This document shows, one piece after another, positions 4,023-21,625 of a stretch of DNA of 64,000 bases. Source of the stretch: Cupriavidus sp. YR651 (GTDB lineage: Bacteria; Pseudomonadota; Gammaproteobacteria; Burkholderiales; Burkholderiaceae); the NCBI RefSeq assembly GCF_900101625.1, contig NZ_FMYZ01000003.1:248001-312000 (forward strand), in the 5' to 3' direction. Each line of letters begins with the position of its first letter. Positions within the stretch are counted from its first letter, which is position 1. A program made the translations under genes and the position numbers. Below the pieces are notes generated by a model. It saw only the letters and a program-made list of their open reading frames with translations, ran no database searches and was not told the origin of the DNA.

Positions 4023-6869
4023 ATGTCAGTCTTCATCTCCTATTCGCGTCGAAACACCGACTTCGTCCGTCGCCTGCACGAGGGCATGGTCGCGCACGGC
4101 CGCGAAACCTGGGTTGACTGGGAGGGGATCCCGCCGACGGCCGACTGGATGAACGAAATCCACGCGGCGATCGACGCGGCCGAGGCCGTCGCGTTCGTGT
4201 TGAGTCCGGATTCCATCAAGAGCGCGGTCTGCCTTCAGGAGCTTGAGCACGCCCTTGCCCAGAACAAGCGGTTGATCCCGCTCGTCTGCCAGGAGGTCAA
4301 TCCGGGCGAAACGCCACCGGCGCTGGCCCGGCTGAACTGGGTGTTCTTCACTGGTGACGATTTCGACAAGGCCTTGCAGACGCTGCTGTCCGCAGTCGAT
4401 ACCGATCTGGACTGGGTAAAGGCACACACACGACTGCTGGTACGCGCGGCCGAGTGGGATCGAAAGGCGCGCGAACCCAGTCTTGCATTGCGGGGCGCTG
4501 ACCTGAAGGCCGCCGAGCAATGGCTCACCGAAGGTCCGACGAAGTCTCCACCGCCCACCGAGCTACAGACGCGGTACGTCATCGAGAGTCGCCGCCTGGC
4601 GGTCAGGCGTCGAACGTTCCTGCTCTCTGGTGTCGGCGTGGCCTTGATCGTTTCGGCCGTGCTGGGCACCCTGTTCCTGCTTCAGCGCAAGGAATCAGGC
4701 CGTCAGGAGGCGGTCGCCGTTTCACGCCGCCTGGCTGCGGTCGCCGAACGCGTACAGGACGCCCCCCTCGAGTATTCAGACGATGCAAGTCGCTTGCACC
4801 TCGGTGTGCAGTTGGCCGCGGAGGCGTTGCGACGTGTCGACGCCGTGGGTGAACGGTCAGTCGAAGCCGACCGGGTGCTCCGAGCTGCGGTGGCGCGTCT
4901 GCCCCAGCGCATTGCGCAGCTTGGAGGCGACGATGCCTTGCGTATCGACGCCCTCGCATTCCTTGGCGGAGCCGAGCTCGTCGCCGCCAGCAAAGCGATG
5001 TCGGCCAGCGTTATCTGGCGCCTGGACGACTCGAAACCCGTTGGGGGAGGGAAGGACACGGGCAAGGCCAACGCCAACGCCGTCGTGCTCAGTCCTGACG
5101 GCGGCACGCTGGCAACGATCGAGCCGAAGCATCCCGAAGGTCCGGTCGCCGTGCGTGAGGCCCGCAGCCACGCGCTCAAGGTGCGCATCAGGGAATCGAC
5201 GGACGCCGTGGACGTTGCGCTTGCGCCTGGCGCTACGTATGCGCTCGTGACGCAGGTAAAGTGGCTTCCCGACAAGAACAGCTACGAGCCGCCCGTGTCG
5301 ACACTCTGGCAATTGCCGCCTGATGGGCACGATGCGCGGGAGATCGTGAAGCTGCCGCCGATTTTCGGCCCGGTGTTCAGTCCCGATGGTGCCTACCTCG
5401 CAGCCCTCGGCAAGGACTACGAACCCCTGATCTGGTCGGTCGAGCGACTGAGCAAGGGCGACCCGTTACCCTTGCGTTCCCTGGCGGCCGATGCGCCGCT
5501 GGCAGGCCGGTCGTTCTTTAGCCCCGATGGCCGGTATCTGGCGATCTCCTACGGCGAGAACCCGAACCGTATCGGCGTCTGGGCCGTTTCCGATTGGTCG
5601 AGGGTCTACGACCTCCCCGCGCCGGAGGCGTCCCACCTGATCGCCGTCGCGCCCGGTGGTCGCTATGTGGCCCTGGCCGCGGAGCATGGCAGCGCGTCCC
5701 TGGTGCGCGTGTTTGACAGCGAGCATCAGTGCGAGGTCACGCAGGCGCTCGCCGGCACGACCGCCCCCGTGGTTGCGTTCGCCGCCGCTGGACGCAGAAT
5801 GGCCCTCGGCGCCGCCAATCGTATCGACATCTTAGAGTTCCCGTCGGGCTGTGGCGATGAAAGGCAATTCGACTCACTCACCGGTGCGGTCGAGGTCGCT
5901 TTCTCGGCCGACGAAAGACAACTGCACGTCGTCGCGCGTTCGGGCGAAGGGCTTGCGCTGCAGCGCGTGGAGGTGTCCGGCGCACGAGTCCTGTCCACCA
6001 CGCCGCTAGGATCGGCCGTCGTCCTGCAATTCAGCGGGGATGGCAGCGCGCTGGCGCTCGCGTCCGACAATCGGGTTCGGCTCGTCGATGTCGCGACCGG
6101 CCGCGAGCGCGCCAGCGTCACCTCGACCGACGTCGTGGCAGCGCTCGCCCTGAGCGCGGATGCGGGCTACCTGGCCGCGGCTACCCGGGGCAAGGTACTC
6201 CAGGTCTGGAGCGGGGCGTCCCTGCATGAGCTGCCGTCGGCGCCGCTACCCGAACCGCTCGATGCAAGCGCCGGTTCGCTTGCCATCGATCCACGGCGCG
6301 TCGTCGCCATTACACGGAGCGAGGCGAGGCGAATTGGGGAACCGCTCAACCTGGAGTCGTGGACGTTGCCGGCGATGGCGCATGCCGCGACGCCAGTCGG
6401 GCAGGATCGAGGCGGCTTTGCTGCGAACGTCTGTGGTCTGAGCAAAGGCGGCGGTCGCGTCGCCATCAATGCGGGCGTATCGGGGATCCGGGTGCGCGAA
6501 ACGGCGTCAGGACAAGACATCGTGATTCTGGACGATCCTGGCAAGAACCGGCGCTGCGCGTTCAGCGCGGACGAACGCTACCTTGCGGTGGAGACCGAAG
6601 GATTCATACGGATCTGGGATGTGGGCGGCCAGATCGAAGTCGCACAGCTCAGGGCGTCCGCAGGCGTGCGCTCCTTCGCTTTCAGTCCCGGTGGGCGATA
6701 CCTGGTTGCCGTGCTTGAGAATGGGAACCTGGGGCGATGGCTGCTTCGGCCTCGGGATCTGATCGAGGACGCCTGTGCGCGGCTGCCGGAAAAAATGTCG
6801 CAGGATAACTGGGAGCGATATGTCGGGAGCACGCCCTACATCGAGTTGTGTCCCGGGCTCGCCAAATAA
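4023..6869 (+). CDS. TIR domain - transmembrane - WD40-repeat protein
   Basis: This is a 948-residue three-part protein. Residues 1-120 form a TIR domain beginning VFISYSRRN, with DW near 32-33 and a candidate catalytic glutamate at Glu73 in CLQEL, the position used by NAD-cleaving TIRs. Residues 131-190 carry the HTRLLVRAAEWDRKAR and LRGADLKAAEQWL linker that recurs in bacterial TIR/WD40 proteins. One membrane helix lies at about 198-220. The remainder is a beta-propeller with degenerate FSPDG-type blades ending in WD-like turns, such as FIRIWDVGG near the C terminus. If the helix spans the inner membrane the propeller would be periplasmic. The start is ambiguous: GTG 4017 and ATG 3975 are in frame. 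The role, sensor or effector in stress or phage response, is inferred. No STAND ATPase or other defence gene is adjacent. Confidence 0.85.
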   Translation: MSVFISYSRRNTDFVRRLHEGMVAHGRETWVDWEGIPPTADWMNEIHAAIDAAEAVAFVLSPDSIKSAVCLQELEHALAQNKRLIPLVCQEVNPGETPPALARLNWVFFTGDDFDKALQTLLSAVDTDLDWVKAHTRLLVRAAEWDRKAREPSLALRGADLKAAEQWLTEGPTKSPPPTELQTRYVIESRRLAVRRRTFLLSGVGVALIVSAVLGTLFLLQRKESGRQEAVAVSRRLAAVAERVQDAPLEYSDDASRLHLGVQLAAEALRRVDAVGERSVEADRVLRAAVARLPQRIAQLGGDDALRIDALAFLGGAELVAASKAMSASVIWRLDDSKPVGGGKDTGKANANAVVLSPDGGTLATIEPKHPEGPVAVREARSHALKVRIRESTDAVDVALAPGATYALVTQVKWLPDKNSYEPPVSTLWQLPPDGHDAREIVKLPPIFGPVFSPDGAYLAALGKDYEPLIWSVERLSKGDPLPLRSLAADAPLAGRSFFSPDGRYLAISYGENPNRIGVWAVSDWSRVYDLPAPEASHLIAVAPGGRYVALAAEHGSASLVRVFDSEHQCEVTQALAGTTAPVVAFAAAGRRMALGAANRIDILEFPSGCGDERQFDSLTGAVEVAFSADERQLHVVARSGEGLALQRVEVSGARVLSTTPLGSAVVLQFSGDGSALALASDNRVRLVDVATGRERASVTSTDVVAALALSADAGYLAAATRGKVLQVWSGASLHELPSAPLPEPLDASAGSLAIDPRRVVAITRSEARRIGEPLNLESWTLPAMAHAATPVGQDRGGFAANVCGLSKGGGRVAINAGVSGIRVRETASGQDIVILDDPGKNRRCAFSADERYLAVETEGFIRIWDVGGQIEVAQLRASAGVRSFAFSPGGRYLVAVLENGNLGRWLLRPRDLIEDACARLPEKMSQDNWERYVGSTPYIELCPGLAK

Positions 6870-7004: not shown

Positions 7005-8075
7005 CTAGAATCGATGCCGCATCCCGGCGCCAAAGGTCTCGGCGTGCGATTGACCGGTCACGCGGTCATAGAAGTACGCGGCATACAGATCGGTCCGCTT
7101 GGACACGTTGTAGTCGTAGGCAATCGCCGCCGTATGCCGGCCCATCGCGGCCGTGTCGTTGCGCGTATTGGCATAGGCATATGAAGCCAGCACGTTGCCC
7201 GCGCCCAGCGGGACCAAAACGCCAGCCTGCCCATTGGCATGGCGGATATCGCCTTGTGCGCCATTGACAGCCGTGCGAATGTACTGGGCCTGCCCAAATA
7301 CCTTGGCGACGCCAAAGTCGTAGCTCAGGCCAAACTGGGCGGCCGTCTGCTTGTCGAAGCCGGCCAATGCCGCGGGTGGAGCGGTGACATCGCCGGGGAC
7401 GATATTGAACCTGGACTGCTGGACCGCCGCCGTTGCCGCAAACGCCCCGTTGAAGTAGGTCACATTGCCGCCAAACTTGTTTTGTCCCGTGCTTCCAGGC
7501 TGCTCGCCAAACGCATAGATCAGATTCACCGTCAGGCCGCCAAAATTTGGCGATGAGTACACGACGGAGTTCGACCAACCCGAGTCACCAATGATGCCGG
7601 GGTCGAATACACGTCCGTCGGTGGCCGTCTTGTACGTCTGGAAGATGGAAGGCCCGAAGTTGTAGGAATCGACCAGCGGATTGAACAGGATCGTCGAAAG
7701 AAAGTACGGCGTTGTGTTTCGCCCCAGCCTGACCGTACCGTAGGTGGAGGATTGCAGTCCCACGTAGGAACTGCGCGTCAGGAACCCGTCAGTGTCGGAT
7801 CGGCCGAAGCGCCCGGTGTCGACGCGATAGTAGCCATTCAGGTCGAAGATTGCCTTCAGGCCGCTGCCCAGATCCTCGGACCCGCGCATGCCCCAATAGG
7901 AAGTCTGCATGCCGCCAGCCCCCAGGATTGCTGCACGGTCTCCACCCGAGGCTTTCGTGGAGCCGACAAAGGCGTCCACCTGGCCATAGAGCGTGACGCT
8001 CGATTGCGCCAACGCAGGCTGAATCAGCCCTGCCGCCAGCGCTGCGGCGGCAAGGGATCGGTTCAATTGATGCAT
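7005..8075 (-). CDS. Gram-negative porin, Burkholderia type
   Basis: This is a 356-residue outer-membrane general porin. A signal peptide (MHQLNRSLAAAALAAGL, ending QPALAQ) is followed by the family's SSVTLYGQVDAFVG start and it ends in MRHRF with the terminal aromatic that directs beta-barrel insertion. The start at 8075 was chosen over an upstream in-frame ATG because it begins the signal peptide and has a strong AAGGAGGAG site. It is the last gene of the minus-strand orotate-type cluster, 65 bp after the malic enzyme, and may admit the substrate through the outer membrane. It could have its own promoter. Confidence 0.88.
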   Translation of the reverse strand: MHQLNRSLAAAALAAGLIQPALAQSSVTLYGQVDAFVGSTKASGGDRAAILGAGGMQTSYWGMRGSEDLGSGLKAIFDLNGYYRVDTGRFGRSDTDGFLTRSSYVGLQSSTYGTVRLGRNTTPYFLSTILFNPLVDSYNFGPSIFQTYKTATDGRVFDPGIIGDSGWSNSVVYSSPNFGGLTVNLIYAFGEQPGSTGQNKFGGNVTYFNGAFAATAAVQQSRFNIVPGDVTAPPAALAGFDKQTAAQFGLSYDFGVAKVFGQAQYIRTAVNGAQGDIRHANGQAGVLVPLGAGNVLASYAYANTRNDTAAMGRHTAAIAYDYNVSKRTDLYAAYFYDRVTGQSHAETFGAGMRHRF

Positions 8076-8140
8076 GGTCTCCTCCTTATTTTTTAGGAAC
8101 GTTGTTGAGCTTGCTGAGCTTGCTGAGAACGCCGCGGTGA

Positions 8141-9433
8141 TCAACCCGAAAACACGAAGCGTCGTGCAGCGAGTTGCGAGCGATAGGCCGCCATGTCGAC
8201 AATCGGGCGTCGTGCCACGCCGGCATCCATGGCTGCCTGGGCCACGGCAGGCGCGAGATGCGTAATGAGGCGGGGGTCGAATGGCTTCGGAATCAGGTAC
8301 TCGGCGCCGAATTCAAACGATTGGCCGGGATAGGCGCTGGCAACCTCCTGGCCGGGCGCTTCCTCTGCCAACGCGGCCAGGGCGTGCACGCACGCCAGCT
8401 TCATCGACTCGGTGATCGTTGTTGCGCCGACGTCGAGCGCGCCACGGAAGATGAACGGGAAGCACAGCACGTTGTTCACCTGGTTGGGATAGTCCGAGCG
8501 ACCGGTCGCAATGACGCAATCGGGGCGCACGTTGCGCGCTTCCTCCGGGCGAATCTCGGGTTCGGGATTGGCGAGTGCGAGAATCAACGGGCGCTCACGC
8601 ATGCCACGCAGCATGTCGGGCTTGAGCACACCGGCACTTGAGCAACCCAGGAATACGTCGGCGTCTTCCAGCGCCTGGCCCAGCGTGCGCGCCAGATAGG
8701 ACGTTCCATCCTGGGCGTAGCGTCGCTTGCCTGGTTCGAGTGCTTCGCGCTCGGAATGAATCACGCCGCGAGAATCCAGTACGGCGATATGCTCACGACG
8801 CAGTCCAAGGCTGACCAGCAGGTCAAGGCACGCCAGGGCCGCGGCACCGGCGCCCGAGCAAACCAGCTTGACGTCGTCGATGGATTTTCCGACGACCTTG
8901 AGGCCATTCAGGATGGCTGCGGCAGCAATGATGGCGGTGCCATGCTGGTCATCGTGGAATACCGGGATGTGCATCCGTTCCCGCAGCGCCTGCTCGATGT
9001 AGAAGCACTCCGGTGCCTTGATGTCCTCCAGATTGATGCCACCGAACGTCGGCTCCATCATGGCGATGGCGTCGATGAGCTTGTCCGGATCCGTTTCAGA
9101 CAGTTCGAGGTCGAACACATCGATATCGGCGAACGCCTTGAACAGGCAGGCCTTCCCCTCCATCACCGGCTTGGCGGCAAGTGGACCGATATTGCCAAGC
9201 CCCAGTACTGCGGTGCCGTTGGTGATCACACCAACAAGATTGTTGCGCGCCGTATAGTGCCGCGCGTCCTGCGGATCGGCGTGGATCGCTTCGCACGCGA
9301 TGGCGACACCGGGGGAGTAGGCCAGCGCGAGATCGGCCTGATTGGCAAGTGGCTTGGTGGGCGCGATGGAGATCTTGCCGGGTGTCGAGGCGCGATGGTA
9401 TTCGAGTGCGCGTTGCTTGAATGCGTCGTCCAT
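8141..9433 (-). CDS. NADP-type malic enzyme, short form without PTA domain
   Basis: This is a 430-residue malic enzyme that oxidatively decarboxylates malate to pyruvate. Visible are the tyrosine segment AYSPGVA (about 37-43), the lysine segment [15 protein letters not shown], the metal site HDDQHGTA, and the Rossmann segment [14 protein letters not shown]. It matches the malic domain of MaeB but stops after it, so the phosphotransacetylase-like C-terminal domain of the roughly 750-residue housekeeping MaeB is missing. ATG 9433 gives the usual [13 protein letters not shown] start. In this operon it would take the C4 product of aspartase, after fumarase, to pyruvate. That pathway role is inferred from context. 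Confidence 0.88.
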
Positions 9434-9519
9434 GGGTGGTTTCAGAAAATGCGGGCAAAAGGAGGCCACCGCCCGTGGTGAACGGGCGGAGGTGCCACAT
9501 ACAACTCAAAGGTTTGGGG

Positions 9520-10197
9520 CTATCCGGCGATGCCGCCGTGCGCGCTGGACCAGTGCGGTGGATCGCTCAGGAACGCGCGCAGCTCGGACAGTTCAGCCTC
9601 GGGCACGTCGCCGGATTCGCTCAGGACGTCCAGGACGTCGCGCCACGTGGCCAGGGCGTGGACATTCGGCTTCCACCTGGAAAGCGCGTCGGCTGTGGGG
9701 AAGGTTCCGTAGTCGAACAGGACCAGGATGTCCTGCACGGTCGCACCCGCAGCGGACAGTGCCTCGCAGAAGGCGACCTTGGATCGTCCTGCCGCCATCA
9801 TGTCGTCGACCAGCAGCACGCGGTCACCGGGACGGATATCGCCCACGACCTGCGCCGCAGGGCCCATGCCGCGGGCTTCCTTGCGCACATAGACCATTGG
9901 CAGGTTCAATAACTCGGCGAGCCATGCGGCGAATGCAATGCCACTGGATTCGGCGCCAGCAATCACATCGATGCCGGTCAGGCGATCCCGGTCACGGAGC
10001 AGCGCCAAGCCTTGCCGGACTAATGCGCGACGCAACGCCGGGTAAGAGACCAGGCGGCGGCAATCGATGTAGACAGGGCTCGTCCAGCCTGAAGGAAGGC
10101 GGAATGGCTCATCGCTGCGAAAGCGAACGCAACCGGCATCCAGCAGTGCCTGGCTGACCGATGCCTGGAGGGTGAGGTCGGTGCGGTTCCTGAACAT
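9520..10197 (-). CDS. pyrE: Orotate phosphoribosyltransferase-like protein
   Basis: This is a 225-residue type I phosphoribosyltransferase. The PRPP loop is clear at VLLVDDMMAAGRSK, and the N-terminal FRLPSGWTSPVYIDCR and YVRKEARGMG segments match orotate phosphoribosyltransferase, which makes OMP from orotate and PRPP. A good AAGGA site precedes ATG 10197. It sits between aspartase and malic enzyme in a cluster that otherwise degrades orotate, so it may be a second copy that salvages part of the imported orotate for UMP. A housekeeping pyrE is expected elsewhere; the symbol here denotes family only. Confidence 0.85.
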   Translation of the reverse strand: MFRNRTDLTLQASVSQALLDAGCVRFRSDEPFRLPSGWTSPVYIDCRRLVSYPALRRALVRQGLALLRDRDRLTGIDVIAGAESSGIAFAAWLAELLNLPMVYVRKEARGMGPAAQVVGDIRPGDRVLLVDDMMAAGRSKVAFCEALSAAGATVQDILVLFDYGTFPTADALSRWKPNVHALATWRDVLDVLSESGDVPEAELSELRAFLSDPPHWSSAHGGIAG

Positions 10198-10210
10198 GGC
10201 AATCGTTCCT

Positions 10211-11674
10211 TTATGCCTTGCCGTGCATGTCCGCACGGGGTTGCACCAGTGCCTCCGGACGCAGCGCTTCTTCCAGAGCCTCCGCCGTCATCAGGCCGCG
10301 GGCGAGTACCACTTCACGAATCGTCCTGTTCTCCGCGTAGGCCTGGGCGGCAACAGACGTCGCGTTCTTGTAGCCGATCACGGGATTGAGGGCCGTCACC
10401 AGTGCGATGGACCGCTCGATGGTCTCGCGCAGGCGCTCCGGGTTGGCAGTGATGCCGTTGACGCATTTCTGAGCCAGCGTCACGCACCCATTCGTCAAAT
10501 GCCGGAAGCTGCGGAACAGGCTCGCGGCGATGACTGGCTCGAAGGCATTGAGCTGCAACTGCCCAGCTTCTGCCGCAAACGTGATGGTCGTGTCATTGCC
10601 AAACACCTCGAACGCTATCTGGTTGACCACTTCCGGAATGACGGGGTTGACTTTGCCCGGCATGATCGACGAGCCCGCCTGCATCGGCGGCAGGTTGATC
10701 TCGCCGAAGCCTGAGCGCGGGCCGCTCGACAGGAGTCGCAGGTCGTTGCAGGTCTTGGAGAGCTTGACGGCAATTCGTTTGAGCACGCCAGAGATCTGGA
10801 CGAACGCACCGCAGTCCTGGGTGGCTTCCACCAGGTTGGGTGCGAGCGCAAGATCGAGACCTGTGATACGCCGCAGCGCGACCAGCGCCTTCGCCGCATA
10901 GTCGGGATGGGCCGTGATGCCCGTGCCGATGGCCGTCGCGCCGAGATTGATCTCGCGAATCAGCGTTCCTGCTTCGCGCAGCCGTGCCATGTCCTCTTCC
11001 AGCATCACGGCATAGGTGGAGAACTCCTGCCCGAGGGTCATTGGGACTGCATCCTGAAGCTGCGTGCGCCCCAGCTTGTAGAGACCGGCAAATTCCTTTG
11101 CCTTCATGTCGAAGGCAACGCGGAGTACGGCCATCGCTTCCAGGAGATGCTCGATGGCAAAGCACGTAGCGATGCGAAGCGCCGTCGGATAGACGTCGTT
11201 GGTGCTTTGCGCCATGTTCACGTGCTCGTTCGGATGCAGGACGGCGTATTCCCCCTTTTGATGGCCCAGGTGCTCCAGGGCGCGGTTGCAGATCACCTCG
11301 TTGGCGTTCATGTTGGTGGAGGTGCCGGCACCGCCCTGGATCGTGTCAACGATGAACTGATCGTGCAGGCGGCCGTCGCGCACGTCGTGGCACGCGGCAA
11401 TGATGGCGTCGCGCAGCGCGGGAGCGAGCAGGCGCAGCTCGGCGTTGGCCTCGGCGGCGGCCTGCTTGACCGAAGCCAGCGCGATGATGAGCTCCGGCCA
11501 CGACGAAATGGGCGTGCCGGTAATCTGGAAGTTCTCCCAGGCCCGCAGGGTATGCACGCCATAGTAGGCGTCGGCGGGAACCTGGCGTTCGCCAAGCAGG
11601 TCGGCTTCAATGCGGTAGGTAGTAGTCACGGTGCGGTCCAATGAAATAGTGCGTGAAGCTATGCGAGGGTCCAT
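10211..11674 (-). CDS. aspA: Aspartate ammonia-lyase (aspartase)
   Basis: This protein of up to 487 residues belongs to the fumarase/aspartase superfamily and would convert L-aspartate to fumarate and ammonia. The signature GSSIMPGKVNP is intact, as are GGAGTSTNMNANEV and HPNEHVNMAQSTND, which point to aspartase rather than fumarase. The start is uncertain. ATG 11674 overlaps the end of the dihydroorotase gene by 16 bases and adds a non-conserved leader; GTG 11629 would begin close to the family's RIEADLLGERQVPADAYYG. The overlap suggests coupling to pyrC. In context it deaminates the aspartate released from N-carbamoyl-aspartate. Confidence 0.9.
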   Translation of the reverse strand: MDPRIASRTISLDRTVTTTYRIEADLLGERQVPADAYYGVHTLRAWENFQITGTPISSWPELIIALASVKQAAAEANAELRLLAPALRDAIIAACHDVRDGRLHDQFIVDTIQGGAGTSTNMNANEVICNRALEHLGHQKGEYAVLHPNEHVNMAQSTNDVYPTALRIATCFAIEHLLEAMAVLRVAFDMKAKEFAGLYKLGRTQLQDAVPMTLGQEFSTYAVMLEEDMARLREAGTLIREINLGATAIGTGITAHPDYAAKALVALRRITGLDLALAPNLVEATQDCGAFVQISGVLKRIAVKLSKTCNDLRLLSSGPRSGFGEINLPPMQAGSSIMPGKVNPVIPEVVNQIAFEVFGNDTTITFAAEAGQLQLNAFEPVIAASLFRSFRHLTNGCVTLAQKCVNGITANPERLRETIERSIALVTALNPVIGYKNATSVAAQAYAENRTIREVVLARGLMTAEALEEALRPEALVQPRADMHGKA

Positions 11675-12702
11675 GGCAGCGTTTCCCCGGCGAGGAACGT
11701 CTGGATGCGGCGTCCATCTGGCAGGTCGATGCTCCCGGTCACGCGCGTCGGTATCCGGTGGAAGGTGACAGTGCCTTCGTTCAGCGGGACGCCATAGAAG
11801 CGCGCGCCGTTCTCACTGGCGAATTTTTCGAAGTGGTGCAGGGCTTGTTCTTCTTCGAACACCGTCAGGTATGCCTGCAAGGCGATGGGGGCGCTGAAGA
11901 TGCCGGCGCAACCGCATGCCGATTCCTTGGCGTCCGTGTCGTGCGGTGCGGAATCGGTGCCCAGGAAGAAGGCGTGCGACCCGGAGGTGGCCGCGCGCCG
12001 CAGCGCGAGTCTGTGCTGCTCGCGCTTGAGCACCGGCAGGCAGTAGTAGTGAGGGCGAATGCCGCCGGTGAACATCGCGTTGCGGTTGAACATCAGGTGC
12101 TGCGGCGTGATGGTGGCGGCCAGGCGGCCGCTTTCATCGCGCATGACGAAATCGGCTGCCTCCTCTGTCGTGATGTGCTCCAGCACGACCTTCAGTCGCG
12201 GATAGCGGGTGAGGATCTGCGTCAGCGTCGTGCGTAGAAAGGCCGCTTCCCGATCGAAGACATCGACCGCCGGGTCCGTGGACTCGCCGTGGATCAGCAA
12301 CGGCATGCCAATGTCCTGCATGGTCGCCAGGACGCCGGCAGTCCGGTCGACCGATGTGACGCCATACTCGGAATGCGTGGTGGCGCCAGCGGGATAGAGC
12401 TTGGCGGCGGCAAACGCTCCGCACTCGAATCCGGCACGGATTTCCCCGGGGTCGGTGTCGTCGCAGAGATAGCACGTCATCATTGGCGTGAACGCCGAAT
12501 CGCCGGGTAGTGCATCGCGAATCCGCTGCCGATAGGCGAGAGCCGCTTCGACAGTCGTAACCGGCGGCTTCAGGTTCGGCATCACGATGGCCCGGCCGTA
12601 CTGGCTGGCGGAAGCCGGCAGCACGGCGCGCAACATGTCGCCATCGCGCAGATGCAGATGCCAGTCGTCCGGACGGCGAATCGTGAGCGTCTCGATGGTC
12701 AT
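11659..12702 (-). CDS. pyrC: Dihydroorotase, class II (PyrC type)
   Basis: This is a 347-residue zinc amidohydrolase of the E. coli PyrC type and length. It interconverts L-dihydroorotate and N-carbamoyl-L-aspartate. The metal site WHLHLRDG (His15, His17), the carbamylated lysine Lys101 in KLYPAGATTHS, the histidines in LIHGES and LEHITT, and the aspartate in GTDSAPHD are all present. Its ATG overlaps the stop of the upstream M20 hydrolase gene (ATGA). The reaction is reversible, and the hydrolase and aspartase on either side indicate that here it runs in the ring-opening direction. Confidence 0.92.
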   Translation of the reverse strand: MTIETLTIRRPDDWHLHLRDGDMLRAVLPASASQYGRAIVMPNLKPPVTTVEAALAYRQRIRDALPGDSAFTPMMTCYLCDDTDPGEIRAGFECGAFAAAKLYPAGATTHSEYGVTSVDRTAGVLATMQDIGMPLLIHGESTDPAVDVFDREAAFLRTTLTQILTRYPRLKVVLEHITTEEAADFVMRDESGRLAATITPQHLMFNRNAMFTGGIRPHYYCLPVLKREQHRLALRRAATSGSHAFFLGTDSAPHDTDAKESACGCAGIFSAPIALQAYLTVFEEEQALHHFEKFASENGARFYGVPLNEGTVTFHRIPTRVTGSIDLPDGRRIQTFLAGETLPWTLA

Positions 12703-13970
12703 GATTGCCTCCCGCGCGGAATGGCCTCAAGCGCTTCGTACAGGACCTTCGTGCCGAGCATGAAGTCGTCCAGGTCCATGGCTTCGTCGGGATTGTGCGA
12801 GCCGTGTTCGTTGCGGACGAAAAGCATCGCGGTCGGGATGCCGGCATTGGCAAACAGCGACGCGTCATGGCCTGCGCCGCTCGGGACCATCTCCACTGGC
12901 AGTTTCGCGTTGGCACACGCGTTGCGCAGGAGATCCGAAAGCCCGGGGTCCATCGTCGCTGGCGCGGATTCAATGCGGCGATCAAATTCGAAATGCACGC
13001 CACGATCGCGGCTGATGGCCTTGCACTCGGTGCGGAACAGCTGGTAGAAGCCTTCGAGCGTGTCCACGCTTTTGCTGCGCACCTCGAAGCTGAAGTCGAC
13101 CTTGCCGGGAATGCGCGAGATGGAATGTTCGGCGGGATCCGTGGAAACCATCCCGGTGGTGACGACCAGATCGCTGCCGCGTTCCAGCAGCACTTTCCAG
13201 TGCTCGTCGAGGCGTGTAATGAGGTCAGCCACTGCGAACATCGCATCCTTTCGCAGCCAACGGGGTACGGCGCCAGAATGGCCGGGTTCGCCGATGCATG
13301 TCACGCGATTGTGGCGGACATTCCCGCGAATACCCGGCACCACGGCCAGCGGCAACTTCCGCGCCACCATGACGGGCCCCTGTTCGATGTGCAATTCCAG
13401 GTACGCAGCGGCAGACGCCCGGTCGAACAGCGGTTGCTGCAGCGCAATGGCTTCGATGTCGGCACCGGCCTCCGCCATGCACTCCGAGAGCGTTCGGCCG
13501 GAACTGCGATGCTTCAGCGCAAGGTCGTCCGGCGTCAGCTTGCCCAGGGCAGCACCAGAGCCCATGTATGCCTTGCCGAACCAGGCGCTTTCCTCGCCGC
13601 GGAAGGCGACGACCCGAAGTGGCGCAGCGCTGGCTGCGCCTTGCTCCTTCCGCGCGACCTGACACAGTAGCCCGGCAACAATGCCAGCGAGTCCGTCGAA
13701 GTTGCCGCCTTGCGGCACCGAATCCATATGCGAGCCGACCCAGGCAGCCGGCGCGCCGGCGTCCTCTTCAGGCAGCGAGAACACAAGGTTGGCGGCTTTG
13801 TCGCTCTGCACGGAAAGCCCATGCTGCTCGGCGAAGCGACGCAGGTAGTCCGCCGTTGCGGACTCGCCCGCACCGTAGCTGTCGCGCGTGACGCCGACAC
13901 CGTCAAAGGACAATGCGCGGATATCGGCGAGGAGCTGCTCGGCCAGCGGCTTGAGGTTGAGGATGTCCAT
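12699..13970 (-). CDS. M20-family Zn hydrolase, probable N-carbamoyl-L-aspartate amidohydrolase
   Basis: This is a 423-residue enzyme of the allantoate amidohydrolase / N-carbamoyl-L-amino-acid hydrolase family. Metal ligands are visible at His81 in GSHMDSVPQGG, Asp92 in NFDGLAG, the glutamate pair in FRGEESAWFG, the histidine in LELHIEQGP, and the late histidine in EHGSHNPDE. The family removes carbamoyl groups from ureido acids, giving the amino acid, CO2 and ammonia. Lying next to dihydroorotase and aspartase, its natural substrate is inferred to be N-carbamoyl-L-aspartate (ureidosuccinase activity). Allantoate amidohydrolase or beta-ureidopropionase activity cannot be excluded from sequence. 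ATG 13970 lies 16 bp after the dehydrogenase stop. Confidence 0.85.
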   Translation of the reverse strand: MDILNLKPLAEQLLADIRALSFDGVGVTRDSYGAGESATADYLRRFAEQHGLSVQSDKAANLVFSLPEEDAGAPAAWVGSHMDSVPQGGNFDGLAGIVAGLLCQVARKEQGAASAAPLRVVAFRGEESAWFGKAYMGSGAALGKLTPDDLALKHRSSGRTLSECMAEAGADIEAIALQQPLFDRASAAAYLELHIEQGPVMVARKLPLAVVPGIRGNVRHNRVTCIGEPGHSGAVPRWLRKDAMFAVADLITRLDEHWKVLLERGSDLVVTTGMVSTDPAEHSISRIPGKVDFSFEVRSKSVDTLEGFYQLFRTECKAISRDRGVHFEFDRRIESAPATMDPGLSDLLRNACANAKLPVEMVPSGAGHDASLFANAGIPTAMLFVRNEHGSHNPDEAMDLDDFMLGTKVLYEALEAIPRGRQS

Positions 13971-13986
13971 ATGCGTGTCCGGTTGC

Positions 13987-14937
13987 TCAGCCCGATTGCT
14001 GGGCGAACCGCAACCAGCGGTCACTAAGCTGGCGATCCAGAATTACCTGGCCAGTGAGATCGCGGATGGATTCGACGCCGGTCTGCTCGCAGTACGCGCG
14101 GAGTCCATCGATGATCTTCTGCATCGCGGCCGGATCACGGAACGACGCGGTGCCAACCTGGATGGCGGAAGCGCCTGCCAGCATGAATTCGACGGCGTCC
14201 TCGGCACTTTGAATGCCACCGCAGCCGATGATGGGAATGCGCACGGCGCGGTAGCATTGGTGCACCATGCGCAGCGCAACCGGCTTGATGGCGGGCCCCG
14301 AAAGGCCGCCCATGACATTGCCCAACCGGGGCTTGCGGGTACGGATATCGATTGCCATGCCCAACACGGTGTTACCCATCACGATGGCATCGGCGCCTGC
14401 TTCTTCCGCAGCCCTGGCGATCGAAGCGATGTTGCCGGCGTTCGGCGTGAGCTTGACCCAGAACGGGTGCCTGGTGCGACGGCGGATCGCGGCGACGGCC
14501 TTGTAGGTCGTTTCCGGCAGCATGGCGAAGGCCATGCCGTCGGCTTCAAGATTCGGGCAGGAGATGTTTGCCTCGATCGCCGCCACTTCAGGCAGGGACA
14601 GCTCTTCGCAGGCCGCGCCGAACTCTTCGGCGGTATCGGCGGAGATCGATACGATGACAGGCGTGTCGTATTGCGTGTAAGGCGGGAGCACTTCCTTCCT
14701 GTAGTACTCGAGCCCCTTGCTGGGAATGCCGATCGAATTGAGCATCCCGCCATGAGTTTCCGCCACGCGTGGCGTGGGGTTGCCGGCCCGGGATTTCGGT
14801 GAAACGCTCTTGATGACCAGCGCGCCAAGCTGGTTCAGGTCCATGGCCTCGCGATACTCGATCGCAAAGCAGCCGGATGCGGGCATTACGGGGTTGCGCA
14901 GCGTCAGATCGCCAACCCGGACAGTCAAATTAGCCAA
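13987..14937 (-). CDS. Dihydroorotate dehydrogenase catalytic subunit, class 1B-like
   Basis: This is a 316-residue FMN TIM-barrel protein of the PyrDB/PreA type. The active-site cysteine Cys127 in NISCPNLE marks the class 1 enzymes; quinone-linked class 2 PyrD has serine there. IKSVSP, NSIGIPSKG and the FMN-phosphate segments IIGCGGI and VGTASF are also present. I chose the TTG start at 14937 because GGGGAGG lies just upstream and it overlaps the PyrK-like stop by 8 bases; a TTG at 14928 is the alternative. With the PyrK-like subunit it would form an NAD-linked heterotetramer able to reduce orotate to dihydroorotate. A dihydropyrimidine dehydrogenase (PreA) role is less likely given the neighbours. 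Confidence 0.87.
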   Translation of the reverse strand: MANLTVRVGDLTLRNPVMPASGCFAIEYREAMDLNQLGALVIKSVSPKSRAGNPTPRVAETHGGMLNSIGIPSKGLEYYRKEVLPPYTQYDTPVIVSISADTAEEFGAACEELSLPEVAAIEANISCPNLEADGMAFAMLPETTYKAVAAIRRRTRHPFWVKLTPNAGNIASIARAAEEAGADAIVMGNTVLGMAIDIRTRKPRLGNVMGGLSGPAIKPVALRMVHQCYRAVRIPIIGCGGIQSAEDAVEFMLAGASAIQVGTASFRDPAAMQKIIDGLRAYCEQTGVESIRDLTGQVILDRQLSDRWLRFAQQSG

Positions 14938-15778
14938 ACTCCACCTCCCCGACGACTTCGCGAATCTTGAATACCGGACCTTCGCGACACACGCGCAGGA
15001 ACTGCTTGTCGCCATCGCAATCGAACAGGCGCACGCAAGACAGGCACACGCCCATGCCGCAGGCCATGCGCTGCTCCATGGCGACTTCGCCTTGCACATC
15101 CGGATGGTCTTGAAGCACCCGCTGAAGCAGCATCAGCAGGCGGTGAGACCCGCAGGTGTAGATGGCGTCGGGGCGTTGGTCGGCGATGAGACGTCGAATC
15201 AGGGCCTCGACGGCCTCCACGGAAGACGTGCCGTCCGCGTCGAATACGCTATGCACTTCTGCCGTGGCGCCGCGCAGGAACTGCTTTTCCATCAGGTCGC
15301 CAGAGGTGCGTGCGGACATCACCGCGGTGATCCCCACGCCAGCAGCCGCAGCCTCGTGGATCAGCGGTGCCATCGTGGCCAGACCAACGCCACGGGCCAC
15401 GACGAGAATCCTGCGGAAGGCGGGCTCGAACGTAAAGGTGTTGCCGAGCGGGCCGACAATGTCCATGTGGCCGTCGACGGGCAGCGTCGCCATCGCCCGC
15501 GTGCCGACGCCGGTGACGTTGTAAAGGAACTCGATCCGTCCGGCTTCAGGGCCGGCGCCGTAGACGCTCATCGGCCGCAGCAGGAACGGTTGCTCTTCGG
15601 CGGTGGTCGGGCAATTGAGCTGGTAGAACTGCCCAGGCCGCGTAATGTTGGCGATCGGGGCATCGGATTCGAGCCTGATGTACTTGTATCGCTGGTTGAC
15701 CCAGTAATGCTCGACAATTCGACAGCGATAGGAGGCTACGGTAGCCGCGGAATCCGGGCTACACACGGTGGCACACAT
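14930..15778 (-). CDS. PyrK-like FAD/2Fe-2S electron-transfer subunit of dihydroorotate dehydrogenase
   Basis: This is a 282-residue ferredoxin-reductase-fold protein. The FAD-binding RPMSVYG lies at 68-74, a nucleotide-binding ILVVARGVGLATMAPL segment follows, and the C-terminal 2Fe-2S ligands are Cys240, Cys245, Cys248 and Cys264 in CGMGVCLSC and RVCREGPVF, the PyrK pattern. It passes electrons between NAD(H) and the FMN of the catalytic subunit through FAD and the cluster. AGGAG lies 8 bases before ATG 15778, and the stop overlaps the catalytic gene. PyrK-linked enzymes are reversible with NADH, which suits a reductive catabolic role. Such enzymes are usual in Gram-positives; most betaproteobacteria use class 2 PyrD for biosynthesis. 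Confidence 0.87.
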   Translation of the reverse strand: MCATVCSPDSAATVASYRCRIVEHYWVNQRYKYIRLESDAPIANITRPGQFYQLNCPTTAEEQPFLLRPMSVYGAGPEAGRIEFLYNVTGVGTRAMATLPVDGHMDIVGPLGNTFTFEPAFRRILVVARGVGLATMAPLIHEAAAAGVGITAVMSARTSGDLMEKQFLRGATAEVHSVFDADGTSSVEAVEALIRRLIADQRPDAIYTCGSHRLLMLLQRVLQDHPDVQGEVAMEQRMACGMGVCLSCVRLFDCDGDKQFLRVCREGPVFKIREVVGEVEFG

Positions 15779-15846
15779 GGGGATGACTCCTGAGAAATGC
15801 GCTGCGCCGGACGGCGCAGCCGAGGAATGCCTGACAGGTTCTGGCG

Positions 15847-17085
15847 TTATTCCAGTTCCACGCCCTTGAGCTCGGGAACAAGGAAGAATGTTGCGATCAT
15901 GTCGAGGACGTAGATGCTGGCAAGCAGTGCGATCGCGAGTTGGAAGGAGTAGGTTGCCGCGATGGCGCCTACGACAATCGGTCCAAGTCCGCCTACCGCG
16001 CGTCCGATATTGAACAGGACGTTTTGTGCGGTAGCGCGTGCCGCCGTGGGGTAAGCCTCGGAGATCAGCGCACCGTATCCGCCGATCATGCCATTGACGA
16101 ACATGCCCATTACCGCACCGGCCCACAGCATCGTCATGGGATCAGACAACCTGGCATAGAGCAGCACCATCGCAACCGCGCCAGCCTGGAAGAACAGGAA
16201 AGTCGGCTTGCGGCCAATGCGGTCGGCGAGATGGCCAAAGATCACGACGCCAATCATCATTCCGACGATCGTGACAGAGGTCCACATGGCCGACTTGGTC
16301 AGCGAGAATCCGAGCGTCCTGGAGAGATAGGTGGGCAGCCAGATCATGATGCCGTAGTACCCGAAGTTCTGGACCGAGCAAAGGACGACGATGCCAAGGC
16401 TGGTTCGCGTGGTCTTGCGGTCTGCCACCAGCAGCCTGAATGCGTTGGGCTTCTTCTCCGTACGGGCGCTCCGCACGAATACTTCGGGCTCGTGCAGGCG
16501 ATTACGGATAAACCACGCTACCAGCGCCGGAATCACGCCAATCAGGAACATTCCGCGCCAGCCCACCACGGGCAGCAGCAGTGGGGTCAACAGCGCAGCC
16601 ATCAGCACCCCCGATTGCCAGCCCAAGGCGACATAGGACGAGACGCGCGCCCGCTTGCTGGCCGGCCAGGCTTCGGCTGCGAGTGCCATGCCGATGCCGA
16701 ATTCGCCGCCGAGGCCGATGCCGGCGATGGTGCGATAGGCCAGCAAATCCCAGAACCCCTGCGCAAAGGCACACATGCCGGTGAACACCGCGAACAGGAC
16801 AATGGTCCAGGTCAGTACGCGAACGCGCCCATAACGGTCGCTGAGCGCGCCGAAGATGATCCCGCCTGCAACGGCGCCGATCAGCGTCCATGTCACCAGT
16901 GCGCCCGACTGGCTGGTGCTGAGCGCGAGGGCGGCACTGATGGCAGGCAGCATGAAGCCAAGAATCAGGAGGTCAAAGCCGTCCATGGCGTAGCCAATGG
17001 CCGATCCGGCCAAGGCCTTCCATGCGTAGGGGGAAGTTGGGGCCTCGGCCTCTGAAACTGACTGAGTGAGGGGCTGGCTGCTCAT
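15847..17085 (-). CDS. MFS transporter, candidate orotate/dihydroorotate importer
   Basis: This is a 412-residue major-facilitator protein with about twelve hydrophobic helices. The loop 2-3 motif appears as GALSDRYGRVRV and its second-half counterpart as GHLADRIGRKPT. AMDGFDLLILGFMLPAI in helix 1 is typical of carboxylate/aromatic-acid H+ symporters. GGAGA precedes ATG 17085, and an upstream in-frame ATG was rejected. It is the first gene of the minus-strand cluster and faces the XRE regulator across a repeat-rich region. An organic-anion symporter leading an orotate-type pathway is most simply the importer; the substrate is inferred only. Confidence 0.85.
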   Translation of the reverse strand: MSSQPLTQSVSEAEAPTSPYAWKALAGSAIGYAMDGFDLLILGFMLPAISAALALSTSQSGALVTWTLIGAVAGGIIFGALSDRYGRVRVLTWTIVLFAVFTGMCAFAQGFWDLLAYRTIAGIGLGGEFGIGMALAAEAWPASKRARVSSYVALGWQSGVLMAALLTPLLLPVVGWRGMFLIGVIPALVAWFIRNRLHEPEVFVRSARTEKKPNAFRLLVADRKTTRTSLGIVVLCSVQNFGYYGIMIWLPTYLSRTLGFSLTKSAMWTSVTIVGMMIGVVIFGHLADRIGRKPTFLFFQAGAVAMVLLYARLSDPMTMLWAGAVMGMFVNGMIGGYGALISEAYPTAARATAQNVLFNIGRAVGGLGPIVVGAIAATYSFQLAIALLASIYVLDMIATFFLVPELKGVELE

Positions 17086-17095
17086 GCTGTCTCCA

Positions 17096-17198
17096 TTTTT
17101 AGACTGTAGGGGCCTGAAAAACCACTGCATTGCGGTGCACTTGGGGTTCATGGACGAGGCCAAGTGCTGATGCAGTGGAGAATCTTATTTTTTAGACT
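17096..17198. promoter_or_regulatory. Nested inverted repeats flanked by direct repeats; candidate operator of the orotate-type cluster
   Basis: Between the divergent MFS and XRE genes, CCACTGCAT (17122-17130) pairs with ATGCAGTGG (17170-17178), and inside it GCACTTGG (17137-17144) pairs with CCAAGTGC (17160-17167). The block is flanked by two copies of TTTTTAGACT, at 17096-17105 and 17189-17198. A TATAGT -10-like hexamer for the regulator lies at 17296-17301. The arrangement suits a dimeric or looping regulator, probably the adjacent XRE protein. Function is inferred; the repeats themselves are exact. Confidence 0.55.
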
Positions 17199-17328
17199 AT
17201 GTCGAAGGCCCTGCGATTGCAAGCGGTTTGCAGCGAACTTCGGGTTTCCACCGATGCTCGCCCGTTGCGCGGTATCGTGCGCGCAGTTGACGTGCTATAG
17301 TGAAATCCATCTAATTAATGAGACAGAA

Positions 17329-18210
17329 ATGGAACACCGCGCCACGACATTGGGTGGGATCGACTTCGAAGCCATCGGTGCCCGGCTTCGTGCCTACCGC
17401 CTGGGCGCGCAGCTAAGGGCCGAACAGATTGCCGATGTGCTCGGGATCTCGCGTGCCGCGGTCTACCGGATGGAGAAAGGCGAGATCGTCAAGATTGAAA
17501 CGCTCGAGCGGCTCGCCGGCATCCTGGGTACGTCGCTCGAGTCGCTGCTTGGAGCTGGCACCGAATACTATCCCTCGGCCATCGCCTACATCGAGCGGAT
17601 GCGGCAGCTTGAGCAAGGTGCGACGCGCATCCTGGCGCACTTCGAGCCCATTTCGTTCCTGCTCACTTCACCCAGCTACGCGGGGTATCTCGAGCAAATG
17701 CTGAGAGAGAGCGGGGACAACGACGAAGGCCGGATCCAGGCCATGATGGAATTGCTGCGCGAACGGAAAGCGTCCTATAGCTCGCAGCCAGCGCCGATTG
17801 TGAGCCTGATTGGTTTGCGCGAGCTGGAACGGTTCGTGCACTTCGGGTTGGTCGGACGAATGGATTTGCCGCCAGCGACAAAGATGGAACGGTCGCTGGC
17901 TGCCCGATCCGAAGTGGCGCGCATTGCCAGCCTCCTGGAGCAGCAACCTGCCGGGATGCAGATCGGCATCGTCAACGAGAGCATGCCGAACGCCACGTTT
18001 CAGATCTTCGAGCGACCAACCGGGTCGTACGTGGCAATCAGCCCATTTCGCTTCGGCGAATTTCCCAATATCTCCGGAGGCATTGCGTCTGTGACCGCCG
18101 CGCCAGAGGCTGTCTCCCTGTACACGAACATGGTCGAGGCGTTGTGGCAGCGATCCTACAAGGGCCTCGACGGCGCCGATCTATTGCGGCGCATGCTGCA
18201 ACAAGTTTGA
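17329..18210 (+). CDS. XRE-family helix-turn-helix regulator with C-terminal sensor-like domain
   Basis: This is a 293-residue protein. The N-terminal Cro/CI-type HTH (about 15-70) includes LRAEQIADVLGISRAAVYRMEKG. The remaining 220 residues form a domain I cannot name, which may bind an effector. It is transcribed away from the orotate-type cluster across a spacer with nested inverted repeats, which makes it the probable local regulator. ATG 17329 was preferred to the open upstream extension because it gives the usual short lead to the HTH; its ribosome-binding site is weak. Repressor or activator action cannot be told from sequence. Confidence 0.82.
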   Translation: MEHRATTLGGIDFEAIGARLRAYRLGAQLRAEQIADVLGISRAAVYRMEKGEIVKIETLERLAGILGTSLESLLGAGTEYYPSAIAYIERMRQLEQGATRILAHFEPISFLLTSPSYAGYLEQMLRESGDNDEGRIQAMMELLRERKASYSSQPAPIVSLIGLRELERFVHFGLVGRMDLPPATKMERSLAARSEVARIASLLEQQPAGMQIGIVNESMPNATFQIFERPTGSYVAISPFRFGEFPNISGGIASVTAAPEAVSLYTNMVEALWQRSYKGLDGADLLRRMLQQV

Positions 18211-18234
18211 TTTGATTGTTTTAGAGAGAGACTC

Positions 18235-18558
18235 ATGGACTTCAAGACCATCACCGCCGAGTTTGCGCAGAGCGTCCCTGGAACGGACGCCTTCCTGAAG
18301 GTCAAGCAACAGTCGCTTGCGCTCATGAAGAGCGATCCGGGCAATGCTGCAGCCTACTTCCTGATCTACGGCTTCGCCCGCTCCTATGTGATCCTGCACG
18401 ACGATGAAGGCATTACGACCGAAGTCGCGAGCGCCGCTCAGGCTCAGTTGCTGGGCTACATGAAGGCGATCGAGCCGACACTGGGCAATGACCAGGCGCT
18501 CCTGAAAGCCATGAATCAAATCGTGCTCGACTACGATGGGCGGCGCCAGCTTTTCTAA
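18235..18558 (+). CDS. Small protein of unknown function downstream of the XRE regulator
   Basis: This 107-residue protein matches no family I recognise. It is predicted mostly alpha-helical, acidic to neutral, with no signal peptide or membrane helix. Normal amino-acid composition and a 24-bp spacing after the XRE regulator, with a purine-rich AGAGAGAGAC stretch before ATG, support a real gene in the same transcript. Possible roles include a regulator partner or an accessory to the divergent catabolic cluster, but nothing in the sequence shows this. Confidence 0.65.
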   Translation: MDFKTITAEFAQSVPGTDAFLKVKQQSLALMKSDPGNAAAYFLIYGFARSYVILHDDEGITTEVASAAQAQLLGYMKAIEPTLGNDQALLKAMNQIVLDYDGRRQLF

Positions 18559-18654
18559 TCGGGAAACCTGATCGAGCCGCATCTGGCTCGGCTTGCATTC
18601 GAAGGCTCGCCACCTACCATTGTCTGCATGCGGGGCAACTCGGGAGGGCAGGTC

Positions 18655-19140
18655 ATGGAACTCAGCGTGGTGCAGGTATCGAAGCCGGAAGCGACCAATT
18701 TCATCTTCGGACAGTCGCATTTCATCAAGACCGTCGAGGATCTGCACGAGGCGCTCGTCGGTACGGTTCCTGGCATCCGGTTCGGCATCGCCTTCTGCGA
18801 GGCGTCCGGCAAACGGCTCGTGCGCTGGTCCGGCACCGATGAGGCGATGATCGACCTGGCCTGCCAGAACGCGATGGCGATCGCGGCCGGACATACCTTC
18901 CTGATTTTTCTTGGGGATGGGTTCTTTCCGGTCAATGTACTGGGCGCCGTGCGCGCCGTGCCGGAGGTGTGCCGCATCTATTGCGCCACCGCGAACCCCA
19001 CGCAGATCATCGTCGCGCAGACGGAGCTGGGACGGGCCGTGCTCGGCGTGGTCGATGGCGAGCCGCCACTCGGCATCGAGACCGCGGCCGACATCGCCGA
19101 CCGCAAGGATCTGCTGCGGCGCATCGGCTACAAGCTTTAA
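18655..19140 (+). CDS. Adenosine-specific kinase-like protein (PF04008 type)
   Basis: This 161-residue protein resembles the small family called adenosine-specific kinase. Recognisable stretches are the N-terminal VSKPEATNFIFGQSHFIKTVEDL, quoted in part, and GIAFCEASGKRLVRWSG. Length is as usual for the family. GGAGGGCAGG precedes ATG 18655, preferred to an ATG 27 bases upstream. The biochemical role of this family is poorly settled, so kinase activity on adenosine is only an annotation tradition. It lies about 95 bp after the small unknown gene and convergent to the NIPSNAP gene. Confidence 0.75.
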   Translation: MELSVVQVSKPEATNFIFGQSHFIKTVEDLHEALVGTVPGIRFGIAFCEASGKRLVRWSGTDEAMIDLACQNAMAIAAGHTFLIFLGDGFFPVNVLGAVRAVPEVCRIYCATANPTQIIVAQTELGRAVLGVVDGEPPLGIETAADIADRKDLLRRIGYKL

Positions 19141-19153
19141 GACCCCCTATCGC

Positions 19154-19172
19154 CCGGCGCCGAACGCGCCGG
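19154..19172. terminator. GC-rich hairpin between convergent genes
   Basis: CCGGCGC and GCGCCGG form a perfect 7-bp stem around a 5-base loop, 14 bp after the kinase-like stop and 23 bp from the NIPSNAP stop. The position suggests a bidirectional terminator, although no T-run is present. Confidence 0.4.
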
Positions 19173-19194
19173 CGGGCCGCGGTCGCAGGTCCGC

Positions 19195-19512
19195 CTACGG
19201 CGTGAAGAACGACACCGGCGTCATCAGCCGGTTCTCCTGGCTGATGAGGTAGCCGGCCTCGGCGCTCATTTTCAGGTACTCGCTCCAGGCCGGGTCCCTC
19301 TGCAGCGCCTGGCGCTTTGCCTCGCGATCGGCAGCGCTGTCATAGACCCAGATGTGCATGTAGCTGTTGACATTGCCGGTCTCGGTTTGCATGTAGGCCA
19401 GCGGCTTGCCCAGGTGGCGGCTCTGGGTCGCGTAGCCGTACTCGGCATACAGCGCCAGGTGTTTCTTGATCGTGCCGGGGTGGCAGGTGTAGGTGCGAAC
19501 GTCGAACAGCAT
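19195..19512 (-). CDS. NIPSNAP-family protein
   Basis: This is a 105-residue alpha/beta-barrel dimer-type protein. The family start MLFDVRTYTCHPGTIKKHL and the later MHIWVYDSAADREAKRQAL segment match NIPSNAP, usually about 100 residues in bacteria. It sits 33 bp after the Bug receptor gene on the same strand, as bacterial NIPSNAP genes often do in catabolic operons. The molecular role is unknown; a small-molecule or degradative enzyme accessory is a guess. Confidence 0.85.
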   Translation of the reverse strand: MLFDVRTYTCHPGTIKKHLALYAEYGYATQSRHLGKPLAYMQTETGNVNSYMHIWVYDSAADREAKRQALQRDPAWSEYLKMSAEAGYLISQENRLMTPVSFFTP

Positions 19513-19545
19513 GGGGTTTCCTCGAACGGTGGCAGATGAGTGGAT

Positions 19546-20523: not shown

Positions 20524-20662
20524 GTCTGTCTCCTGTGCCTCTGGTTTCTTATGGCATGCCGACGGCGACGCCGGGTTCGGCTGCGCCATGGGGGACACTT
20601 TAGGCAGCTGCGTGGCGGCGGCGTTAGGACGGATCAGACGTTGTGTTGGACTTTTTCGCGCG

Positions 20663-21562: not shown

Positions 21563-21625
21563 GCGCGGGTTTCCTTGCGGTTTCGGATCCTGGTTACCGG
21601 CGCCATCCTATCGCAAAGTGCGGCA

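Follow-up and report, generated by a model that had tools for sequence, protein, structure and literature searches.

A predicted orotate catabolic operon in Cupriavidus and its relatives among the Pseudomonadota

A 64,000-nucleotide stretch of the Cupriavidus sp. YR651 genome (contig NZ_FMYZ01000003.1, positions 248,001 to 312,000; hereafter the window) carries at 7005-18210 nine close-packed minus-strand genes and a divergent plus-strand XRE regulator, and we regard this cluster with high confidence as a dedicated operon for the catabolism of orotate (Table 1). Orotic acid is a pyrimidine building block that is present, for example, in cow's milk. An initial annotation made from the sequence had described nine minus-strand genes and a regulator; all are present, with families backed by NCBIfam and Pfam. 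PyrDB, PyrC, aspartase and the M20 hydantoinase/carbamoylase score over curated NCBIfam cut-offs, and PyrE, PyrK, the major facilitator superfamily (MFS) carrier and the malic enzyme fall under theirs yet are clear. Start codons were picked by comparison with relatives, which places the regulator start at 17329 and the carrier start at 17085 and leaves an intergenic gap of 243 bp. The regulator is present and divergent as first described; its open reading frame as supplied was 55 codons too long at the start. From the carrier gene downward, the eight junctions measure a gap of 68, an overlap of 8, a gap of 16, overlaps of 4 and 16, and gaps of 13, 86 and 65 bp, which agrees with the earlier description of gaps mostly below 90 bp and several overlaps.

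Table 1. Features of the predicted operon, its surroundings in the window and the Klebsiella plasmid copy.
Feature	Position	Strand	Evidence or remark
MFS carrier, aromatic acid:H+ symporter type, proposed orotate importer	15847-17085	-	TIGR00895 352.9 bits, cut-off 418.55; Pfam MFS_1
PyrK-like electron-transfer subunit (FAD, [2Fe-2S])	14930-15778	-	Pfam DHODB_Fe-S_bind; L. lactis PyrK 1ep1_B 4.2e-22
PyrDB, class 1B dihydroorotate dehydrogenase, proposed orotate reductase	13987-14937, TTG start	-	NF005574 and TIGR01037, over cut-off
M20 hydantoinase/carbamoylase-family amidohydrolase, proposed N-carbamoyl-L-aspartate hydrolase	12699-13970	-	TIGR01879 271.2 bits, cut-off 204
PyrC dihydroorotase, second copy	11659-12702	-	TIGR00856 about 433 bits (432.9-433.4), over cut-off
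Aspartase (aspartate ammonia-lyase)	10211-11674	-	TIGR00839 686.1 bits, cut-off 681.2
PyrE-like orotate phosphoribosyltransferase, second copy	9520-10197	-	NF001729 230 bits, under cut-off 245
Short malic enzyme	8141-9433	-	covers positions 3-426 of the 764-residue PRK12861 model
Outer-membrane porin (Porin_4)	7005-8075	-	Pfam PF13609 6.1e-51
XRE-type regulator, proposed dedicated	17329-18210	+	HTH_31/HTH_3 matches only
Small conserved protein, 107 aa	18235-18558	+	kept in relatives; no family match
Operator-like palindrome	17088-17105	.	21.4 bits, second best in the window; ends 2 bp before the MFS start codon
Operator-like palindrome, middle	17181-17198	.	23.2 bits, best in the window
Operator-like palindrome	17308-17325	.	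20.6 bits; 3 bp before the XRE start codon
Module adjoining lacYZI	L083 (NZ_CP092408.1) 17551-33030		Klebsiella plasmid

PyrDB aligns over nearly its full length with solved structures in the Protein Data Bank (PDB; 5ue9, 5.2e-83; 1ep1, 3.4e-80) and keeps the NISCPN (with the catalytic cysteine), GNPTPRVAET and GMLN-IG stretches of class 1B enzymes, which we take to line the orotate site. It scores 383.1 bits as a dihydroorotate dehydrogenase, compared with 140.4 as PreA. In the accompanying PyrK the four [2Fe-2S] cysteines align with those of L. lactis PyrK, and the nicotinamide-binding stretch reads ARGVG where L. lactis has GGGIG, a replacement shared by at least 58 of 63 PyrK matches. The nearest solved structure to the M20 enzyme is an N-carbamoyl-L-amino acid hydrolase (3n5f, 1.1e-51), and the M20 proteins of related loci share stretches such as RGEESAWFGKAYMGS and RGNVRHNR; against the model for the N-carbamyl-L-glutamate hydrolase ErtE it reaches 286.9 bits, with a cut-off of 520. 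A single operon encodes families for all three steps of a route from orotate to aspartate, namely PyrDB/PyrK, PyrC and an M20 carbamoylase.

In the pathway that we propose, orotate would enter through the porin and then the MFS carrier. PyrDB/PyrK would reduce it to dihydroorotate with electrons from a nicotinamide cofactor, PyrC would open the ring to give N-carbamoyl-L-aspartate, and the M20 enzyme would split this into L-aspartate, CO2 and NH3. Aspartase would convert L-aspartate to fumarate and a second NH3, and fumarase from general metabolism together with the malic enzyme of the operon would lead on to pyruvate, CO2 and a reduced cofactor, which could pay for the initial reduction of orotate. 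PyrE would save part of the orotate as nucleotide. We infer the direction of these reactions and the electron donor, and likewise that M20 acts on N-carbamoyl-L-aspartate, a substrate drawn from the pathway and not from the M20 sequence. Overall, the operon very probably degrades orotic acid to ammonia, carbon dioxide and pyruvate, and orotate would then serve as a carbon, nitrogen and energy source. The initial annotation had arrived at the same reading, which is supported by separate pyr copies in the genome, by a like arrangement in other Burkholderiales and by an orotate-type receptor in relatives, as set out below.

The relatives of PyrDB fall into two groups that differ in their linked genes; the nearest named ones to the window PyrDB are from Cupriavidus. 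A scan yielded 240 relatives, the best 80 of which were kept, and a tree of 85 sequences was built from these, loci L083, L084, L098 and L100, and the window, with the copies from its own genome (L001 and L002) left out. A branch with 100% support separates 63 rows, all Pseudomonadota where the origin is named, from 22 rows of Bacillota, Actinomycetota, Bacteroidota, Acidobacteriota and others. On the first side, whose members are here called module loci, 63 of 63 have PyrK and M20 of at least 40% identity linked to PyrDB; none of the 22 on the other side does, although weaker PyrK relatives (27-34% identity) occur in 21 of these 22. CarB and/or PyrB show the reverse distribution (8/22 against 0/63, the window included). 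Further genes linked in module loci are XRE (at least 40% identity; 50/63), the MFS carrier (at least 60%; 48/63), the small gene behind XRE (46/63), PyrE (34/63), the porin (28/63), PyrC (21/63) and aspartase (19/63); the XRE and small genes are both absent from the 22 other loci, and the malic enzyme is linked in 5/63 and 2/22. The loci span no more than 10 kb on each flank of the match (20 kb in L083), and contig ends often cut them short, so that true absences are fewer than counted. The same gene order in other Burkholderiales, which the initial annotation had proposed to look for, was found there, and recurrence of the gene set in other genera means that it is not chance.

The names PyrK, PyrDB, PyrC and PyrE all come from biosynthesis, and the cluster could accordingly be read as duplicate biosynthetic genes, used for instance for pyrimidine synthesis in another regime. 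We rejected this reading, which we consider extremely improbable, on genome content and on neighbours. Searches for second copies of pyrB, pyrC, pyrD and pyrE in the 6.96-Mb genome found a higher-scoring pyrC on contig C34 (481.4 bits, compared with 432.9 for the operon copy), a class-2-type pyrD on C38, a second pyrE on C34 (183.7 bits with TIGR00336, over cut-off) and pyrB on C32, adjoining a pyrC-like gene. The initial annotation had tied a biosynthetic role to the operon holding the genome's sole pyrC and pyrD, and these separate copies speak against it; its observation that the cluster lacks aspartate carbamoyltransferase also holds, with pyrB on another contig. The operon PyrE lies under the cut-offs of orotate phosphoribosyltransferase models; after a first look with NF001729 it had seemed the genome's only clear PyrE, a view dropped when TIGR00336 found the copy on C34. 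A class-2 PyrD is over cut-off in 36 of the 36 module-bearing genomes searched (36 of 80 loci), and together with the separate pyr genes here this means that pyrimidine supply does not depend on the module as its sole route. Moreover, aspartase and a carbamoylase would drain a biosynthetic pathway, the module loci lack CarB and PyrB, and the remaining class 1B loci are without M20.

The transporters linked to module loci are of several types (MFS, TRAP and TctC). Three loci, L028, L048 and L053, yielded no MFS relative of at least 60% identity. They pair the module instead with a tripartite ATP-independent periplasmic (TRAP) transporter, which closely precedes PyrK in L028 and L053 and follows PyrC in L048. 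The DctP receptors of L028 and L053, the two of the three TRAP loci that were compared with the PDB, match 4nn3 best by a wide margin (1.4e-115 and 4.4e-133), with 4p47 next (1.7e-46 and 1.8e-48), and 176 of 318 aligned residues are identical between the L028 receptor and 4nn3. The accessible text of one source describes 4NN3 as a structure bound to orotic acid (PMC11668362). This kinship provides the sole experimental evidence, by relationship, for orotate import by the module. It also bears on the idea that the true substrate is a related compound (dihydroorotate, N-carbamoyl-aspartate, hydantoin-5-acetate or a substituted orotate) that enters the pathway part-way. The variety of linked transporters is in keeping with that idea, and sequence cannot here separate M20 carbamoylases or class 1B enzymes by substrate; against it stand the receptors of two module variants, kin to the orotate-bound 4NN3, and the fact that the PyrDB and PyrE families both act on orotate. 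We consider a related substrate very unlikely.

The MFS-XRE gap holds a candidate binding site for the regulator. Motif searching used 47 upstream regions, taken from 30 of 48 MFS and 23 of 53 XRE matches hand-picked for spread, after removal of six overlapping or near-copy regions. The resulting motif, aGTCTaAAtaTTtAGACt, is a palindrome (GTCTAAA-WW-TTTAGAC) with a log-likelihood of 279.7, compared with 40.4-48.2 in four dinucleotide-shuffled sets that were searched somewhat less (15 starts and 20 rounds, against 25 and 25 for the real set). The three best sites of the window all lie in the MFS-XRE gap (20.6-23.2 bits), and the next place scores 10.2. The pattern RTCTHMWWWWWDRGAY, which was written after the sites were known, occurs at four places in the whole genome, three in this gap and one further, weaker one, and the reversed-pattern control at none. 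Because the pattern is nearly confined to this gap, the regulon is probably this locus alone, and the XRE protein would probably regulate no other. Among the 61 loci scanned (L003-L063), a site of at least 14 bits is present in 45 of 46 with a called XRE (L053 reaches 13.1) and in 3 of 15 without one (L006, L043, and L052 with a split XRE). In L052, from Leclercia, the module is broken into short frames, either a low-quality sequence or a decayed copy.

From position and co-occurrence, we infer that XRE is the binder of these palindromes and a repressor: it would bind all three sites, most likely as a repressor that is released by orotate or a breakdown product. The C-terminal part of the protein has no match among Pfam families or solved structures, and PDB matches cover only the helix-turn-helix (HTH) part. 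Seven Acetobacteraceae/Rhodospirillales rows of the module side are without XRE and without the palindrome. Four of the seven have a gene in common, which in L061 encodes a Rieske oxygenase, and the substrate of these rows may differ. In L054, L055, L057 and L061 PyrK-PyrDB stands beside a gene encoding, in L061, a Rieske oxygenase, together with a divergent M20, and these loci are perhaps a pathway for another ring compound.

The small gene begins 24 bp behind XRE and was absent from the initial annotation. Its product has no match in Pfam, PHROGs or NCBIfam and no PDB relative below an E value of 0.6. Two forms, A1 and A2, are distant relatives (hhalign probability 70.9, E 3.8e-5, 93 columns), and the A2 form has a single family match far under its cut-off (14.6 against 250 bits). 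In Pandoraea the A2 form lies just before the MFS gene, and the small gene is also found on Klebsiella plasmids (L083:24462-24788). Among 60 genomes of the same genus, PyrDB (at least 80% identity) is present in 14, one a fragment, XRE in 16 and the small gene in 16, and two further genomes hold only a PyrDB relative of 56-57%. With kinship ignored, XRE and the small gene occur together in 15 of the 60 (Fisher 4.7e-12), PyrDB and XRE in 13 (1.4e-9), and PyrDB and the small gene in 12 (1.0e-7). Across 300 genomes of the order, 13 have PyrDB relatives (1e-60), with identity reaching at least 66% in three, and the small gene was found in two, both times within about 4 kb of PyrDB.

The XRE and small genes also occur apart from the enzymes. 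Genome G351 has an MFS relative (79%) and the small gene alone, and G340 has XRE without the small gene; at L096:8124-9964 an MFS relative (79%) lies with the small gene, and XRE and PyrDB were not found in that genome. In G342 (L094) the XRE-small pair faces a TctC receptor gene identified by Pfam, and a similar gene was seen by eye in G376 and G341. The pair lies away from PyrDB in L094, L095, L097 and L099, and in L095 and L099 it faces a TctC-like gene, again by eye. The receptor gene is perhaps a second target of the same type of regulator. The idea that the small gene is always paired with the enzymes was weakened by its presence with XRE in genomes without PyrDB and, once, beside MFS alone. 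Our guess is that a role near uptake or sensing fits the small protein best.

Several observations weigh against the reading as a dedicated orotate catabolic operon. First, with ARGVG in place of GGGIG in PyrK the electron donor is not certain, and M20 is over cut-off, among the models listed, only for the broad TIGR01879, its nearest miss being the allantoate amidohydrolase subfamily NF006771 (392.9 against 399 bits). Second, PyrC and aspartase are linked in only 21 and 19 of the 63 module loci, so that the remaining loci must either draw on other copies or follow a different route; in the Pandoraea loci a linked PyrC was not found, and another copy presumably serves. Third, the loci were chosen by similarity to the window PyrDB and include many close kin, which makes their counts not independent, and the motif scores are partly in-sample, the matrix having been trained on some of the regions scanned. 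Fourth, the genes do not always travel together: G338 and G341 carry XRE and the small gene on a different contig from PyrDB, the pair is present but PyrDB missing in G342, G376 and the incomplete G382, and G392 has PyrDB without either. Finally, the operon pyrE also fits simple orotate salvage, in which the carrier and PyrE would feed orotate to UMP and the remaining genes would be unrelated. A PyrE-like gene is present in the 34 module loci counted above, and the available portion of a 2026 review (PMC13328217) describes bacteria that take up orotate via DctA to obtain pyrimidines. Yet PyrK, PyrDB and M20 are present in every one of the 63 module loci, PyrE in little more than half, and by established biochemistry salvage can do without a dihydroorotate dehydrogenase, a carbamoylase, an aspartase and a malic enzyme; we hold salvage to be very unlikely.

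The module is also plasmid-borne. A PyrDB relative at 1e-30 occurs in 90 of 72,556 plasmid records, 53 of which are from Klebsiella. At least 80% of a 7.2-kb cluster (MFS, PyrK, PyrDB, M20, PyrC, XRE and the small gene) is present at 99% identity or more on 53 Klebsiella plasmids; two additional Klebsiella plasmids have a 215-bp piece only. On at least 48 of the 53, one place covers at least 80% of a 15.5-kb stretch that reaches through lacY, lacZ and lacI. By their source lines, nine of the 53 come from milk or mastitis, a raw count from which no enrichment for milk is claimed. None of 5,426 E. coli genomes matched in a search in near mode. Cows' milk holds 32-36 mg/L orotic acid according to the accessible part of PMC8614319, and a word search for 'orot' found no occurrence in the main text of two papers on lac plasmids of dairy isolates (PMC12724306, PMC10711319). 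The plasmid copy beside the lactose genes suggests an ecological idea, the use of a second special milk nutrient.

In its widest form, our interpretation would be of a horizontally spread, undescribed orotate-mineralising module of the Proteobacteria with its own XRE regulator (bearing a new effector domain), a palindrome read by that regulator alone and a new family of small proteins that help the regulator or the carrier to sense or import orotate, the Klebsiella copy at the side of lac being an adaptation to milk; this whole we put forward only tentatively, as a doubtful possibility. On a more immediate level, the operon supplies testable genes for the proposed steps and a regulator with a candidate binding site. 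The PyrDB branch also offers a means of telling class 1B enzymes of catabolism from those of biosynthesis, a distinction that database annotation may miss; the Klebsiella copy, for one, is annotated as pyrimidine nucleotide biosynthesis.

Consensus promoters and terminators were not above chance (1 promoter-like signal against a mean of 2.3 in shuffled sequences, and 6 terminator-like against 8.0), and no transcription start or end is therefore claimed. A single 947-aa protein with a TIR domain followed by WD40-like repeats is encoded at 4026-6869 of the window, and an adenosine-specific kinase family protein (PF04008) at 18628-19140, adjoining the small gene.

Among the matches listed, which cover open literature only, none describes an orotate catabolic gene set or operon in aerobic bacteria, and the system apparently combines old biochemistry with an undescribed gene set. 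Biochemical work of the 1950s showed aerobic bacteria to use orotate via dihydroorotate and ureidosuccinate. The route is the same as the one proposed here; genes, regulator and spread are given in the present analysis, and no link between the two is drawn. Clostridium (Zymobacterium) oroticum ferments orotate by means of dihydroorotate dehydrogenase, dihydroorotase and ureidosuccinase. The proposed order of reactions is alike, as is the class of dihydroorotate dehydrogenase, run in reverse; the available text of PMC10395836 places the C. oroticum enzyme in class 1B. The present system differs in belonging to Proteobacteria and in being a single operon with an importer, aspartase, malic enzyme, porin, regulator, operator-like sites and a small protein. 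With the Gram-positive PyrDB-PyrK enzymes (L. lactis 1ep1; 5ksw, 5ue9) it shares the family, the active-site cysteine stretch and the four cluster cysteines, whereas the window PyrDB belongs to a separate group that is linked to M20 and not to CarB/PyrB, and its PyrK has the ARGVG replacement. The orotic-acid-binding TRAP receptor 4NN3 is the closest solved relative of the L028 and L053 receptors, L048 has a transporter of the same TRAP type, and the window has an MFS carrier instead. The reductive pyrimidine pathway (PreTA, dihydropyrimidinase and beta-ureidopropionase), which acts on uracil and thymine, has the same logic of reducing the ring, opening it and removing the carbamoyl group; unlike PreA, the window PyrDB scores as a dihydroorotate dehydrogenase.

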